Shown: piece after piece, positions 1,077 to 26,212 of the stretch
How the letters are laid out: the number at the start of each line of letters is the position of its first letter
Numbering within the stretch: position 1 is the stretch's first letter
NCBI GenBank assembly: GCA_021158735.1
Contig: JAGGUC010000067.1
Coordinates: 1-32,849 of the forward strand
DNA: 32,849 nucleotides
Source: Desulfurococcales archaeon
GTDB taxonomy: Archaea > Thermoproteota > Thermoprotei_A > Sulfolobales > NBVN01
Direction: 5' to 3'
Notes under the pieces: model-generated
The model's database searches: none
Seen by the model: the letters and a program-made list of their open reading frames with translations, nothing else
Told to the model about the DNA's origin: nothing
Program-made: the position numbers and the translations under genes

Positions 1077-1118
1077 CTGGAGCCCCGTGGTCCGGGGTTC
1101 AAATCCCCGCGGCCCCAC
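1077..1118 (+). other. att site 1: 3' fragment of a tRNA gene (42-bp direct repeat)
   Basis: The 42 bases are identical to 7259-7300. They contain a T-arm (CGGGG, TTCAAAT, CCCCG) followed by the acceptor strand CGGCCCC and A; this copy also keeps CCA. No matching 5' half (GGGGCCG) lies upstream, so it is a partial tRNA left by integration and not a functional gene. The core starts with CTGGAG, which would put CTG at the anticodon position and suggest tRNA-Gln(CUG). The variable loop would then be 6 nt, so the identity is uncertain. Confidence 0.85.
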
Positions 1119-1170
1119 CACATCAAATTTATATGAATTCTGATATTGTTCTAATTGGTGGTAGTTGCCT

Positions 1171-1202
1171 TGTTATATCACTATTTTCAGATTGTTATGT
1201 CA
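1171..1202. repeat. left-end arm repeats of element A
   Basis: TGTTATATCA at 1171-1180 and TGTTATGTCA at 1193-1202, 22 bases apart, just inside the left att. The same pair recurs 23 bases apart in remnant B (7352-7361, 7375-7384). Presumed integrase arm-binding sites. Confidence 0.5.
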
Positions 1203-2705: not shown

Positions 2706-2709
2706 GTAT
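2691..2709. promoter_or_regulatory. palindromic operator over TATA box, copy 2
   Basis: ATATCTA-N5-TAGGTAT, a 6/7 match to the dyad at 1832-1850, again overlapping TTTATATCT just upstream of the second metallophosphoesterase gene. It overlaps the 3' end of the first pseudogene. Confidence 0.5.
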
Positions 2710-2731
2710 GTATCTATGTGGGGATGGGAAA

Positions 2732-3451
2732 ATGAAAATAATGGTTATAAGCGACTTGCATTATGATAAGCGTGTATTTAAAGGAATTGACGGGTCTAGG
2801 GCATGGGAGTGGCTGTTATCAATAGTAGATTATTATGGGCTTGATTATCTGTTAAGCTGTGGAGATTGGGGTACTGGTATTAGCTTCGAGGAATTCTATG
2901 AGTTGCTTGAGAAAACTATTGTCTTGAGTGTCTACGGCAACCACGAGAACATGGATGTTCTAACCAAACTGTACAATGTTAAGACTAGTGAATACCTACC
3001 TGTACTCATGGAAGATGCTAGAATATATGAATTTAGTGAGTTAAGGATAGCAGGTATAAGCGGGGTCATAGCTAAGAAGAGGAAGACGAAGAAGGGAGTT
3101 CCGAGACGAACACCTGGAGAATTCCTAGAAGCTGCCGAGAAGCTAAGGAACAAGAACATAGATGTACTACTCATACATTAGACACTCTACCTCCCAAACC
3201 TGTTCCCGTTCACGGCGCAGGGTTTCCGCTCGTTAACTGCTTTAGAAACCGTAAGAATAATTAAACCAAGACTAGTAATTAACGGGCACATGCATAGTGG
3301 AGGCTATAGGACACATGATTTTCCGTGGAGAACAAAGTATATCTACATAGATTCTTCGCAGAAGGAGAGACATTACCTAATATTAAATACAAATAATATG
3401 GACTTAGAAGTGTGGAGAGACTTCGAAGTAGTTGATGAAGTTGAGGTGTAG
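2732..3451 (+). pseudogene. metallophosphoesterase with single in-frame TAG (copy 2)
   Basis: From ATG 2732 (MKIMVISDLHYD) the frame shows D-x-H, SCGDWG and VYGNHENMD, the standard metal-binding motifs of calcineurin-like phosphoesterases. It reads IDVLLIH and then TAG (3179-3181). The same frame continues without a shift through TLYLPNLFPF, VINGHMHSGG and a C-terminus ending at TAG 3449-3451, about 239 codons in all. Family members usually have HExP after the strand, so the TAG most likely replaces GAG (Glu): one point mutation. An alternative start at 2708 in frame is upstream of the likely transcription start. The gene has its own TATA box and operator. It could be a recent nonsense pseudogene, a sequencing error, or a readthrough case; the last is least likely. 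Confidence 0.8.
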
Positions 3452-3481
3452 AAAGCTTTATACCTTATTTAAACATTATAT

Positions 3482-3513
3482 GTTACTGGAGTAACAACTG
3501 TTACAGTTGTTAC
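3482..3513. repeat. 9-bp phased GTTAC/GTAAC repeats with 10-bp inverted repeat
   Basis: GTTAC at 3482, GTAAC at 3491, GTTAC at 3500 and GTTAC at 3509 are exactly 9 bases apart. GTAACAACTG (3491-3500) and CAGTTGTTAC (3504-3513) make a perfect 10-bp inverted repeat with a 3-base spacer. It lies between two convergent genes, directly before the GC-rich segment. Possible protein-binding iterons or an RNA hairpin. An alternative is the leftover of a Thr/Val-repeat coding sequence (it reads VTGVTTVTVVT). Confidence 0.5.
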
Positions 3514-3575
3514 CGCCGCGGAGTGGCCCCCACGGTGAGGGAGGGATGAGTCGTGGGCTCTGCCGTGACGCGGCG
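3514..3575 (+). ncRNA. candidate GC-rich structured small RNA
   Basis: A strongly GC-rich island in AT-rich DNA, closed by a perfect 7-bp stem CGCCGCG (3514-3520) / CGCGGCG (3569-3575). Inside, CCCAC (3529-3533) can pair with GTGGG (3553-3557), leaving a 19-nt G/A-rich loop (3534-3552) with GTGA and ATGA; CACGG (3531-3535) / CCGTG (3563-3567) is an alternative pairing. A T-rich tract (about 3578-3588) follows and could be a terminator, and TATA-like sequences lie around 3458-3475. The shape recalls an archaeal H/ACA-type hairpin with a K-loop, but a clear ACA box is missing. Strand and function are inferred. Confidence 0.4.
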
Positions 3576-3582
3576 ACTTTCT

Positions 3583-3978
3583 CTACTTTTCGAATCTCCT
3601 GAGCTCTTCCCTAAACCTCTTAGGATTGTTCTTGAGAAGAATCCTGAAGTAATTAGCTAGATTATCTGTTATAGTTATCAGGTTGTTCATGTACTTAGCC
3701 TTGGGTTCGCTTTCAAGCACCTTAGGTTCGTAGCTTATGTACCTGCTGAGTTTGTTGTCCGCAATTATTAGTGCAGGTCTATAGCGATGTAGAAGGCTTT
3801 CCACAGCATCTATTGATTGGACAACTTGGGCTAAGTCAATCACCTCTCTTAACTTGCTGTACCTCCTAGAGAAGAACCTTAGATAACTAGCTCTCCTACT
3901 AGAAGAAACCCTACGAAAATGTCTTAGCCCAGTACAGAGACGGCCAAACACCCTACTCTTCAAAACGTGCTCTCTCAT
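3583..3978 (-). CDS. unknown protein; true 5' end probably upstream and frameshifted
   Basis: 131 residues from ATG 3978, basic in the N-half (many Arg). The same frame is open further upstream to about 4046 and reads LSNLIIAIDLSEDGPRIIAL, a beta-strand with Asp that looks like real protein. No ATG/GTG/TTG exists there in frame, because GTG ATT TAA at 4049-4041 ends at once. Adding one T to the ATTT run would give a start GTG ATT TTA AGC in frame 18 bases after the preceding gene, behind a GGTGAT ribosome site. So the gene may be full length but broken by a 1-base deletion. The strand-Asp motif and a later RPALIIADNK hint at an RNase H-like fold, a weak inference. It is in operon order with the upstream minus-strand gene. 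Confidence 0.5.
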   Translation of the reverse strand: MREHVLKSRVFGRLCTGLRHFRRVSSSRRASYLRFFSRRYSKLREVIDLAQVVQSIDAVESLLHRYRPALIIADNKLSRYISYEPKVLESEPKAKYMNNLITITDNLANYFRILLKNNPKRFREELRRFEK

Positions 3979-4066
3979 GCCAACTAGAGCTATTATTCTA
4001 GGACCGTCCTCACTAAGGTCTATAGCTATTATTAAGTTGCTTAAATCACATCACCTATAGTTTTTG

Positions 4067-4420
4067 CTATAGCTTTAGGTTCTTAAGCTTGTAGTACTTC
4101 CTATGTAATTTCTTTTCTGCCCATACTTTTGCTGCTTCCACAATTTCTGTTGGTAGTTTTTCTAAATCTACAGGCCTAGATAGCTCTAGTTCACATGTTA
4201 TATTGTGTTTCTCACACTTAAGATAGAGTGATAGTGCAAATGCTAGCTCTAGCCCTCTATCGGGAAACAAGAAATACACATAGTCTTGTGAGTAAGCGAT
4301 TTCACCTTGTAATTTGATGTGCTTCCTCTTCTGATTTCTCCTGAACTTCTTGATGTTATTGAGAATGAATTCTCTTAGGTTTTTATTCTGTACTTTCCTT
4401 GGAATTCTCAGTATTATCAT
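4067..4420 (-). CDS. small basic protein of unknown function
   Basis: 117 residues, very Lys/Arg-rich, starting MIILRIPRKVQNKNLREFI. A central hydrophobic stretch (YVYFLFPDRGLELAFALSLYL, about residues 48-68) is more like buried helix/strand than a membrane segment. A TATA-like TTTATATATT lies about 35 bases upstream on the minus strand and a weak AGGTAAG ribosome site precedes the ATG. It is the first gene of a probable two-gene unit with the gene at 3583-3978. I do not recognise the family. High charge and location in an integrated element suggest nucleic-acid binding, but this is only an inference. Confidence 0.6.
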   Translation of the reverse strand: MIILRIPRKVQNKNLREFILNNIKKFRRNQKRKHIKLQGEIAYSQDYVYFLFPDRGLELAFALSLYLKCEKHNITCELELSRPVDLEKLPTEIVEAAKVWAEKKLHRKYYKLKNLKL

Positions 4421-7258: not shown

Positions 7259-7300
7259 CTGGAGCCCCGTGGTCCGGGGTTCAAATCCCCGCGGCCCCAC
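7259..7300 (+). other. att site 2: 42-bp tRNA 3' fragment
   Basis: Identical to 1077-1118 over 42 bases. It diverges inside the CCA (here CTA), and the flanks on the left differ. It marks the junction between element A and the older remnant B. Confidence 0.85.
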
Positions 7301-7570
7301 TAAATAAACTAATACAAGTTCTGACATGATTCTACTCGGTGGCAGTCACCTTGTTATTTCACCATTTTTCAGACTGTTATATCAAGTTCTAAGCTATGAA
7401 CTGAGTTCAGCTTTGAATTCATTATTCAAAGTGATGGTTATGGTTGATAATTAAGTATATTGATTTGGGGATTCCAATGATATTTATTATATAGTGCTTG
7501 ACCACTCCCTGGAAGGTTAGGAGGGCTGACAATAGGAGTCTAGGTATATCTCCTAGCTTAACTAACGCCT
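7301..7570. mobile_element. remnant of element B (left end and start of integrase)
   Basis: From the att core to about 7570 the sequence is a degraded duplicate of 1119-1395. Shared pieces include the arm pair (7352, 7375), the GAATTC-rich stretch, GTTGAT-TATTGATTTG (integrase VD-FID) and AGTCTAGGTATATCTCC (NLGISS). It carries stops and indels throughout. Beyond about 7570 the similarity ends, so the rest of B was deleted. Confidence 0.7.
7441..7570 (+). pseudogene. decayed integrase N-domain of element B
   Basis: Fragments alignable by eye to the gene at 1284: ATGGTTGATAATTAAG (VD then stop), TATATTGATTTG, ACTCCCTGGAAGGTTAGGAGG and GGAGTCTAGGTATATCTCC. Multiple stops and shifts. It keeps an apparent ATG before the VD, which suggests that the element A copy lost its start codon. 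Confidence 0.55.
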
Positions 7571-21544: not shown

Positions 21545-22855
21545 CTATTTGGGTCTCACATGCCCCCATTTTCTCAGTGCTTCAGACAGCTCCTTATGTG
21601 TCTTAGCGTACTCCTCAAGCGGTGTGTTACTTAGGTAAGCCTCAATAGCCTGTCTGACTGCCATGCCCCCAGCTCTTGTCCCCCATGGATGCCCGGTAAC
21701 GCCTCCTCCCACCTGAATCAGTATGTCTACACCCATAAAGTCAAGTACTTGATGTAGGATTCCTGGGTGAAGCCCGCCTGAAGCTACGGGTAATACGGGC
21801 TTTAGTCCATACCATTTCTGCGTTTCTTTAATTGACTTAGCTTCTGGTTTGAATTCCTCTCTGGTCATAACATTCACGGTTTCCCGCAATTCTGCCATGT
21901 CGGCCTCCATCTTACCTACATTAGTGCCTACATGAATGTGGTCAACACCAGCTAATCTAGCTATCTTAGCTATTAAGTAAAACGAAACACCATGTTCCTT
22001 ACTTCTAGTGAATGCTGCATGGAATGCTCTGTGAGCATGGATAGCTAGTTTTAAGTCTTCGGCCTCCTCTCTCACAGTCTGAAGTGCTGCCCAGCCAGCA
22101 CATAAGATGTCGATCATGATGAAGTTATTGCCGTGATCAGCTACGGCCTTCATACGTCTAAGCATCTCACGTGTCTCAGCAGTTATGTTTACTAAGTAGC
22201 CTTTTCTCTCACCAGTTTCTTTTTCAGCTTTTTCTAGTGCCTTGACTACAGCGGCTAGTCTTTTCTCGAACTTATTGAAGCTTTGACTAGTCAGGTTTTC
22301 ATCATCTTTAATTAGGTCTACCCCTCCAGTAGCTATTTCGTACGCTACTTGAGCGTATTCTTCTGTTGTGAGTCCTACTTTAGGCTTAGGGACGGTAGCT
22401 AGTATGGGTCTGCCATGTACCTTCAGAATATCCCTGACACCCTTCACACCGAACTGCGGCCCTAGGAAGGACTTGACGTACTTTTCAGGGAACTTGATGT
22501 CAATAACTCTCAGTGCTTTGATAGCTCTCATGCCGAAGATATTGCCTAGGAGTGAGCTGAATAGCTGGGGTATGGAACCAAGCTCAAAGAGGTCTAACGG
22601 GTAAGCTACCTTAATTAGCCCGTCCTCACTCATGTAGTATACCTTCGCCATTAAATTCTTTATGTGGTCTTTGAGAGTAGTTAGTGTTGTCCAGGTGCCT
22701 ACACTGCTTTCTGAAGCAACCCTACCTGCAGCATCTGCTAAGCTGACACCTGGAGCTGGCCTTACCTTAAATACGGCGATTACATCGTGGGTTCCCGGAG
22801 TATATGATAAGTCGATGAAGTCTCTATACCATTCGAAATCTTGGTCTTCACTCAA
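21545..22855 (-). CDS. rbcL: ribulose-bisphosphate carboxylase, archaeal form III
   Basis: 436 residues, the length of archaeal form III. Catalytic segments: KPKVGL with Lys157/Lys159, GGVDLIKDDE with the carbamylated Lys183 and metal ligands Asp185/Glu186, AIHAHRAFHA with His275, loop-6 Lys315 in GTNVGKMEAD, and SGGLHPG and GGGVTGHPWG phosphate loops. In archaea without a Calvin cycle this enzyme works in AMP/nucleoside salvage: ribulose 1,5-bisphosphate derived from AMP plus CO2 gives 3-phosphoglycerate. The partner genes (AMP phosphorylase, R15P isomerase) are not in this window. It starts at TTG 22855, about 38 bases after a TATA-like GGTTAAATAC, with a weak GGT site before it. No small subunit, as expected. 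Confidence 0.96.
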   Translation of the reverse strand: MSEDQDFEWYRDFIDLSYTPGTHDVIAVFKVRPAPGVSLADAAGRVASESSVGTWTTLTTLKDHIKNLMAKVYYMSEDGLIKVAYPLDLFELGSIPQLFSSLLGNIFGMRAIKALRVIDIKFPEKYVKSFLGPQFGVKGVRDILKVHGRPILATVPKPKVGLTTEEYAQVAYEIATGGVDLIKDDENLTSQSFNKFEKRLAAVVKALEKAEKETGERKGYLVNITAETREMLRRMKAVADHGNNFIMIDILCAGWAALQTVREEAEDLKLAIHAHRAFHAAFTRSKEHGVSFYLIAKIARLAGVDHIHVGTNVGKMEADMAELRETVNVMTREEFKPEAKSIKETQKWYGLKPVLPVASGGLHPGILHQVLDFMGVDILIQVGGGVTGHPWGTRAGGMAVRQAIEAYLSNTPLEEYAKTHKELSEALRKWGHVRPK

Positions 22856-24779: not shown

Positions 24780-24855
24780 GCCGCCGTAGCTCAGCCGGTA
24801 GAGCGCCGGCCTCGTAAGCCGGTGGTCGCGGGTTCAAATCCCGCCGGCGGCTCCA
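24780..24855 (+). tRNA. tRNA-Thr (anticodon CGU), with encoded CCA
   Basis: Full cloverleaf: acceptor GCCGCCG/CGGCGGC, D-stem GCTC/GAGC, anticodon stem CCGGC/GCCGG with loop CTCGTAA (anticodon CGT at 24813-24815), variable loop TGGTC, T-arm GCGGG-TTCAAAT-CCCGC, discriminator T, then CCA at 24853-24855. No intron. It serves as the attachment gene of the integrase that starts 74 bases downstream. It is complete, as expected when an element restores the tRNA 3' end. Confidence 0.97.
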
Positions 24856-24898
24856 CTCACCCTAAGTTCTTCATGAAAACTTATATACCCCTCAGGCG

Positions 24899-24926
24899 GT
24901 TCCCGTTTCTTGGAGGTTCCGGGAAC
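24899..24926 (+). promoter_or_regulatory. hairpin enclosing the integrase ribosome site
   Basis: GTTCCCG (24899-24905) and CGGGAAC (24920-24926) can pair around a loop containing the GGAGGT ribosome site (24912-24917) of the integrase GTG at 24929. A TATA-like TTATATA (24881-24887) lies upstream. The hairpin or DNA dyad could limit integrase translation or be an operator. Confidence 0.4.
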
Positions 24927-24928
24927 TC

Positions 24929-26212
24929 GTGTTCGAACTCGGTTCTGATGTTGAGTGGTATGAGAGGGTTAGGGTTGAAGCTTTAGGTGACGATGTTAGG
25001 CTTAGTATTTTAAGGGCTGTTAAGAATAAGCTTGGATTTAATGGGGCTTGTAGTGCTTTAGGTATTGCTAAGTCAAGCCTCCATAGGTATCTTTCAGGTA
25101 AGCGTAAGATACCTAGTGATGTTGTTAAGAAGGCGCTTAGACACCTTGAGAGGGAGGAGTTTGAATCCATTGTTAGTGAATGGGATAAACTCAGGGCTCT
25201 AGGTGTTATAAGCGATAAGGGAGTTGTAGATTATGGTCTTGCACTTAAGATACTGGGGCTAGCATCTAAAGACGAGTACTTAAAGAATGCTATCTTGAAA
25301 TTTGTCGTCCAAGAATTTAGAGACGATCTTAGGAAAATGCTTGGAATAAGTTTTGTAGGAATTAAGCTGGAGTGGAGTGAGAATTTCGAATACTTCCTCA
25401 TGGAGCGTAAGAAACGTAGGAAAGTAAAAGACCCAGAAACACTAAAATACTATAAAAGCCTATTCGAAAAGTACTTGCAGGGTAAGGAGCTTTCAGAGAA
25501 GCTAATAGACTATGTAGTTAACCATCCAAATAGGTGGCTTAGAAACGTGTTTAGACACTACATACAGTACCTATACTTTAAGAGGAAAATATCACCTGAA
25601 ACATTTGGTTGGATTATGGAGGTTGTTCCTAGCAGGAGCTACAAGCTAGATGTGAGGCCATACCAGATATCTCTAGAAGACTTGAGGAAAACATTAGCAT
25701 TCCTTAAAGAGAAACACCAGCTATACTACACGATCTACAAAGCCATGCTTGAGTCAGGTGCTAGGTTCGAACATGTACTTAGGATGTTTGAAAAATGGAA
25801 TCCTAGCGAAGTAATTGAAATCCCAGGGTTAAACATTATTACCAAGAGGCTTGTATGTTTCGAGGATAGAGGTTTCTGCAGATACTACATGGGCTTAAGG
25901 GGTTCTGAGAAACCATGTGAGTGGGTGTACTTCAGCGCAGACACACTCAAACTACTACGGGAATTCGCTTCTAAACACGTCAACAGACACCAGGTCAGTA
26001 AGTACGCTAAGAGGCACAACCTGATACTGCCCAAATACATGAGGAAGGCTTCGTGGAGGCTTATGGTGAAGGCCGTGCCTAGGGAAGTAGCTAGGTTCAT
26101 CCAGTCTAGGTTCGGGGAGCTTAGAGTTAGTGAGGCGAGGTACGAGGACTTACTTGGTGAGGCTGATGAGGAGTATCCCAAATATCTAGGGATGGTTAGG
26201 GAGTACCTGTAA
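24929..26212 (+). CDS. int: archaeal tyrosine integrase (pNOB8/SSV-like)
   Basis: 427 residues from GTG 24929, 12 bases after GGAGGT. N-domain about 1-80 has an HTH-like unit (LGFNGACSALGIAKSSLHRYLSGKRKIPSDVVKKAL). A core-binding region follows (about 150-235, many Lys/Arg). The catalytic domain includes the first Arg in SGARFEHVLRM (Arg279), a Lys/Arg pair KASWRLM (Lys373, Arg377, replacing bacterial HxxR as in SSV-type enzymes), and Tyr candidates ARYEDL (405) and EEYPKYL (416, 419). All elements for activity appear present. It would cut and join at the 3' half of the adjacent tRNA-Thr. The gene does not contain the att site, unlike true SSV integrases, so it stays whole after integration. 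Its N-domain pattern matches the remnants at 1284 and 7441. Confidence 0.93.
   Translation: MFELGSDVEWYERVRVEALGDDVRLSILRAVKNKLGFNGACSALGIAKSSLHRYLSGKRKIPSDVVKKALRHLEREEFESIVSEWDKLRALGVISDKGVVDYGLALKILGLASKDEYLKNAILKFVVQEFRDDLRKMLGISFVGIKLEWSENFEYFLMERKKRRKVKDPETLKYYKSLFEKYLQGKELSEKLIDYVVNHPNRWLRNVFRHYIQYLYFKRKISPETFGWIMEVVPSRSYKLDVRPYQISLEDLRKTLAFLKEKHQLYYTIYKAMLESGARFEHVLRMFEKWNPSEVIEIPGLNIITKRLVCFEDRGFCRYYMGLRGSEKPCEWVYFSADTLKLLREFASKHVNRHQVSKYAKRHNLILPKYMRKASWRLMVKAVPREVARFIQSRFGELRVSEARYEDLLGEADEEYPKYLGMVREYL

Follow-up and report, generated by a model that had tools for sequence, protein, structure and literature searches.

The original paper on DUF3800 RNAs is reportedly that of Weinberg et al. 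from 2017. DUF3800 proteins have been described as having an RNase H fold and being linked to putative non-coding RNAs (PMC10910872); these RNAs are structured and lie beside RNase-H-fold proteins without a known role, some of which have been seen in CRISPR loci (PMC10910872, PMC12669027). In a scan of archaeal DUF3800 loci with Rfam, we found DUF3800-X RNAs convergent with the DUF3800 gene, just past its stop codon, and DUF3800-VI RNAs upstream on the same strand. Here we describe an RNA from a Desulfurococcales archaeon, encoded in a stretch of 32,849 nucleotides (contig JAGGUC010000067.1 of assembly GCA_021158735.1; hereafter the window), which resembles DUF3800-X (RF02984) in being archaeal, small, stem-closed and convergent past the stop codon of its partner gene, but which differs from it in sequence and in internal structure. 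The DUF3800-X covariance model matched neither the window RNA nor its relatives, and no Rfam family matched the window RNA at gathering score, the weak matches being chance. The RNA family is thus previously uncatalogued and absent from Rfam 15.

A GC-rich hairpin RNA and its 5' leader

The preliminary description of this DNA had pointed to a GC-rich island with a 7-bp closing stem as a candidate structured RNA. The island does contain the 62-mer with the highest GC content of all 32,787 in the window (0.758, or 76%, against a window mean of 0.42), closed by a stem (P1) of CGCCGCG paired with CGCGGCG. Within it, a tandem GA/GA separates P1 from P2, a short helix with two conserved G-U pairs that reads GUGGC/GCCGU or, in another RNA type, GUGGG/CCCGU, a C-G to G-C swap. 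The hairpin continues through P3 to an apical loop, where a K-loop-like cap (GGUGA...AUGA) is present in only 20 of the 39 RNA copies; the other cap types, GGUAA...GGAUGC and GGUACCGG...GGGGGAUGAC, keep the GAUG, but not the full K-loop.

Table 1. Features of the RNA locus and its surroundings; positions are those of the window.
Feature	Position	Strand	Remarks
tRNA 3'-half, left att-like direct-repeat copy	1083..1200	+	
Calcineurin-like metallophosphoesterase gene	2708..3451	+	Upstream of RNA; in-frame TAG at 3179-3181
BRE/TATA promoter of RNA (putative)	3451..3463	+	GAAAGC-TTTATA; TTATA placement across loci
Variable 5' leader	3482..3513	+	Contains the phased GTWAC copies; 3491-3500/3504-3513 form a hairpin that stacks on P1
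Conserved RNA core	3514..3575	+	39 homologues; P1/P3 pairing and two-sided changes
P1	3514-3520/3569-3575	+	
Tandem GA/GA	3521-3522/3567-3568	+	Between P1 and P2
P2	3523-3527/3562-3566	+	GUGGC/GCCGU
P3	3529-3535/3551-3557	+	
Apical loop	3536-3538/3545-3550	+	UGA...GAUGAG; K-loop-like
orf155	3583..4053	-	Divergent DUF3800-like protein with predicted RNase H fold; convergent with RNA; stop codon ~7 nt past P1
orf117	4067..4420	-	Small protein, predicted ferredoxin-like fold; upstream of orf155, same strand
tRNA 3'-half, right att-like direct-repeat copy	7259..7380	+	84% identical over 122 bp

A DNA search located a second copy of the RNA in the same genome, on contig C164, and further copies in relatives, and a covariance-model search detected the RNA in 25 of the 214 genomes of the order; altogether, 39 homologues were collected, in Thermoproteota. 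An alignment of 18 sequences that was not fitted to any model already contained two-sided changes at 6 of its 14 consensus pairs. When the 39 matches were aligned to the covariance model, 97.8% of the P1 and P3 cells were paired, 10 of the 14 pairs carried two-sided changes and the covariation score reached 0.579, figures that are biased towards the model because the alignment was fitted to it. Shuffled alignments scored 0.185 and slid structures at most 0.115, and these controls agree with the fitted figures, as does the unfitted alignment. The preliminary description had itself named compensatory changes in homologues as a check, and their abundance bears out its proposal. It is this covariation, and not the folding of the single sequence, that shows the GC-rich island to be a real structured RNA gene of heat-loving archaea. 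Folding energy alone decides nothing, since the window RNA is only mildly more stable than shuffled sequences on the + strand (z -1.7), whereas the - strand folds better (z -3.7).

The strand was assigned from two other features. The P1 and P3 cells hold 23 G-U against 7 A-C on the + strand, a ratio that would swap on the other strand. Moreover, 22 of 38 loci have a TTATA between 30 and 60 nt before P1; the four windows lying further upstream each contain this motif in 0-2 of 38 loci, the 0-30 nt window contains it in 4 of 39, and the reverse motif TATAA is found in a single locus of 38. We therefore read the RNA from the + strand, where transcription would start at about 3484-3490 and where the T-rich tail of the RNA extends into the orf155 gene. 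An RNA on the - strand, despite its better single-sequence fold, was rejected on these same grounds.

Directly upstream of the core, GTTAC, GTAAC, GTTAC and GTTAC start at positions 3482, 3491, 3500 and 3509, and a perfect 10-bp inverted repeat is formed by GTAACAACTG (3491-3500), a TTA loop and CAGTTGTTAC (3504-3513), both as first reported. The phasing exceeds chance: 60 dinucleotide-shuffled versions of the window contained no run of three or four GTWAC copies at 9-bp spacing. The real window has only two hairpins of this 10-bp type, where a shuffled one would be expected to hold 0.25. The earlier view that the repeats lead into the RNA holds in so far as they form a leader hairpin adjoining P1, but they lie outside the conserved core. 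Only a few close relatives retain the palindrome of the leader: G024 with a compensatory T-A to C-G change, L028 with a compensatory A-T to G-C change together with additional 9-nt units, and the C164 copy for the most part, with G-U wobble pairs, though there the minimum-energy fold differs. Most other loci have unrelated leaders in which the palindrome is missing or different, whereas the GC-rich hairpin is conserved across families. The 9-bp phasing is part of a lineage-specific 5' leader hairpin; the repeats, which differ from the GC-rich hairpin in their conservation, are a separate thing.

The convergent orf155 gene

The position between convergent genes noted in the preliminary description is confirmed, and the partner arriving from the other side is orf155. 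This gene is tail-to-tail with the RNA in 30 of the 39 loci, its stop codon mostly 0-6 nt away (range -12 to +15), and a further two or three loci retain weak orf155 remnants. RNAs that have no clear orf155 partner are found twice each in L070 and L075 and once in L077, L080 and L081; the two in L070 (1485-1619) are family hairpins in direct tandem, and no partner protein was detected near them. Conversely, a reverse search by the protein family alone retrieved 17 loci, all 17 of which carry the RNA on the other strand, immediately beyond the stop codon.

No Pfam or NCBIfam family in the libraries searched accounts for orf155, and no relative was found by sequence in the PDB. Alignment of the family shows four acidic residues that are conserved, or almost so (D11, D98, E113 and D129). 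The AlphaFold2 model of orf155 (pLDDT 92.8) points to an RNase H fold; among PDB structures it most resembles archaeal RNase HII proteins (E 2e-6, TM ~0.55), a likeness of fold only, at ~16% sequence identity. The Pfam DUF3800 model (PF12686) gave no match to orf155 at any reported threshold, which is why we call the protein DUF3800-like rather than DUF3800 and why the link to that family rests on profile comparison: orf155 and short archaeal DUF3800 proteins matched at P 5.5e-5, with a score of 36.3, whereas none of 100 column-shuffled controls exceeded 19.0. In a viral fold library, the second-ranked match was an annotated DUF3800 protein, though its E of 0.021 is weak.

Most genes of the orf155 family, the window gene with its uncertain start codon among them, have no ATG, GTG or TTG before the conserved N-terminus, where instead a conserved Shine-Dalgarno-like GGTGA or GGTGG is followed, after ~6 nt, by TTA or ATA. 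A non-canonical start or recoding is possible in this family, and translation from TTA or ATA, if used, would be weak, suiting a protein kept scarce.

More distant orf155 relatives, including a 187-aa RNase-H-like candidate, occur in G510 (L109) and G486 (L108 4050-5600), where a different GC-rich, structured-looking candidate RNA (GAUGUGGGGCGAACCCCC...GGGGCUGAUGU) occupies the convergent position; though the sequences are few, the habit of pairing RNA and protein seems older than the present RNA family. For the different RNA beside the distant proteins L089 and L090, a search for a link to TnpB omega-RNA gave no match outside the protein family except one weak match in G229, and scans of viral and plasmid sequences were empty.

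Mobility and genomic setting

The RNA had been placed inside an element, termed A, and a direct repeat of a tRNA 3'-half does flank it, the two copies bounding an integrated element of ~6.2 kb. There is also an identical match of 38 nt at C170:1513-1550. Among the neighbours, orf117 adjoins orf155 in several loci and is often decayed, and L025, L028, L037 and L074 have a relative or remnant of the metallophosphoesterase in the corresponding position, uninterrupted in L037 where the window gene has its TAG.

Additionally, the unit of RNA and protein occurs between unrelated chromosomal genes with no replication genes nearby (L024, L032, L078 and L079). Comparison of L024 with G162 shows that the shared DNA stops at the start of orf155 and at P1, G036 lacks the unit at a site that is occupied in its congener G170, and in G055 it is probably absent beside the same upstream flank. 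The flanks of G170 are too diverged from those of G036 and G055 to yield exact insertion boundaries. RNA and protein move or decay as a unit on mobile DNA. No plasmid or phage record and no viral contig carrying an orf155-family protein was found, and PADLOC returned no credible defence-system match.

Some further features were observed in passing. A CRISPR-like repeat array lies just upstream of the RNA-protein pair in the complete genome G031 (L076 107-1121). In the window itself, 24780-26212 holds a tRNA-Thr and, after it, an archaeal phage integrase (PF16795), which may mark a second integrated element, and a RuBisCO large chain gene lies at 21545-22855 (-).

Possible roles of the pair and comparison with known systems

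The almost constant tail-to-tail linkage makes it probable that RNA and orf155 act jointly, as an RNA-protein unit travelling on mobile DNA. As a single, joint judgement, we favour a reading in which positions 3484 to ~3590 (+) are a stand-alone small RNA gene and its core hairpin is the cognate RNA of orf155, the two forming a module in which the RNA would control or position the nuclease. The hairpin, from P1 through the tandem GA, P2 and P3 to the K-loop-like cap, would bind the convergently encoded orf155 and hold or position it; the RNA would most likely keep the nuclease in check or license its activity, in an antitoxin-like or scaffold role, and the module would spread and decay on mobile elements, the window copy lying in a tRNA-integrated one of ~6 kb. 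Its biological role may most likely be that of a selfish or defence RNA-nuclease module, a tentative suggestion. Against the module reading stand the lone RNAs, and the co-divergence of RNA types and protein types could arise from linkage alone.

The main rivals are control in cis and an RNA guide. A convergent RNA might mainly regulate the orf155 mRNA through the overlapping 3' end, as antisense or terminator, which would suit both the short distance, 0-15 nt in most loci, between the end of the core and the stop codon, and the T-rich tail entering the gene; such a role, however, has no need for a conserved tandem GA, P2, cap or compensatory changes, and lone RNAs persist without the gene, so that we regard it as unlikely. 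Slightly less likely still is an RNA-guided nuclease in the manner of OMEGA (TnpB/IscB), in which the RNA would be the scaffold and the protein would be guided to targets by the 5' leader, which varies, or by the short tail at the 3' end. With that system our pair shares an adjacent structured RNA and a protein of (predicted) RNase-H/RuvC fold with conserved acidic residues, on mobile, multi-copy DNA, and the leader does vary between loci. Yet the protein, at ~155 aa, is far smaller and lacks recognisable lobes for target binding, the leader, a short one, is conserved among sister copies, and, whereas an omega-RNA carries a 3' guide and overlaps tnpB in sense, the window RNA is antisense to its gene, with the core ending at the neighbour's stop codon. 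The guide RNA envisaged in the preliminary description also finds no variable guide segment inside the conserved core; only the short leader and the 3' tail vary.

Two minor rivals are very improbable. An archaeal box H/ACA pseudouridylation guide would, like the window RNA, be a hairpin with an internal loop and a K-loop-like cap in a hyperthermophilic archaeon, but an ANA box directly 3' of the closing stem is found in none of the 39 copies, the strands of the would-be pocket are mutually complementary in most of them, Rfam gives no match and the RNA is linked to one protein; the missing ANA box and the self-complementary pocket led us to reject this candidate. Plasmid copy control, the other function first proposed, would fit an RNA between convergent genes in a tRNA-flanked element, and would call for an adjacent replication gene with a complementary mRNA; the neighbour here is RNase-H-like and no replication protein, and the same RNA sits at unrelated chromosomal sites that have no replication gene, so the proposal finds no support.

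The boldest reading, which we regard as doubtful, is that of a minimal mobile RNA-controlled nuclease in which the activity or targeting of a ~155-aa enzyme of RNase H fold depends on a tail-to-tail RNA of ~75-100 nt. If true, RNA-directed or RNA-licensed nucleases would have arisen a separate time in archaea. Natural variants of the pair, with RNA types to match, number in the dozens, and the expectation for the family is sharp, namely that the protein binds the RNA.

Similarly to the window RNA, the DUF3800-I, -VI and -IX RNAs are structured and lie beside a gene for an RNase-H-fold protein (DUF3800), but their motifs are different; a search for DUF3800-I in genomes of the order, run with no positive control, was empty. 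Because the convergent layout matches that of DUF3800-X and the profile of orf155 links it to DUF3800, we regard the RNA as a probable new family of the DUF3800-associated kind. The DUF3800-associated RNAs are a known puzzle, to which this family brings a compact pair of a 62-nt core and a ~155-aa protein. Rfam 15 has no entry for the RNA family, and the protein family is likewise missing from the Pfam and NCBIfam libraries that were searched.
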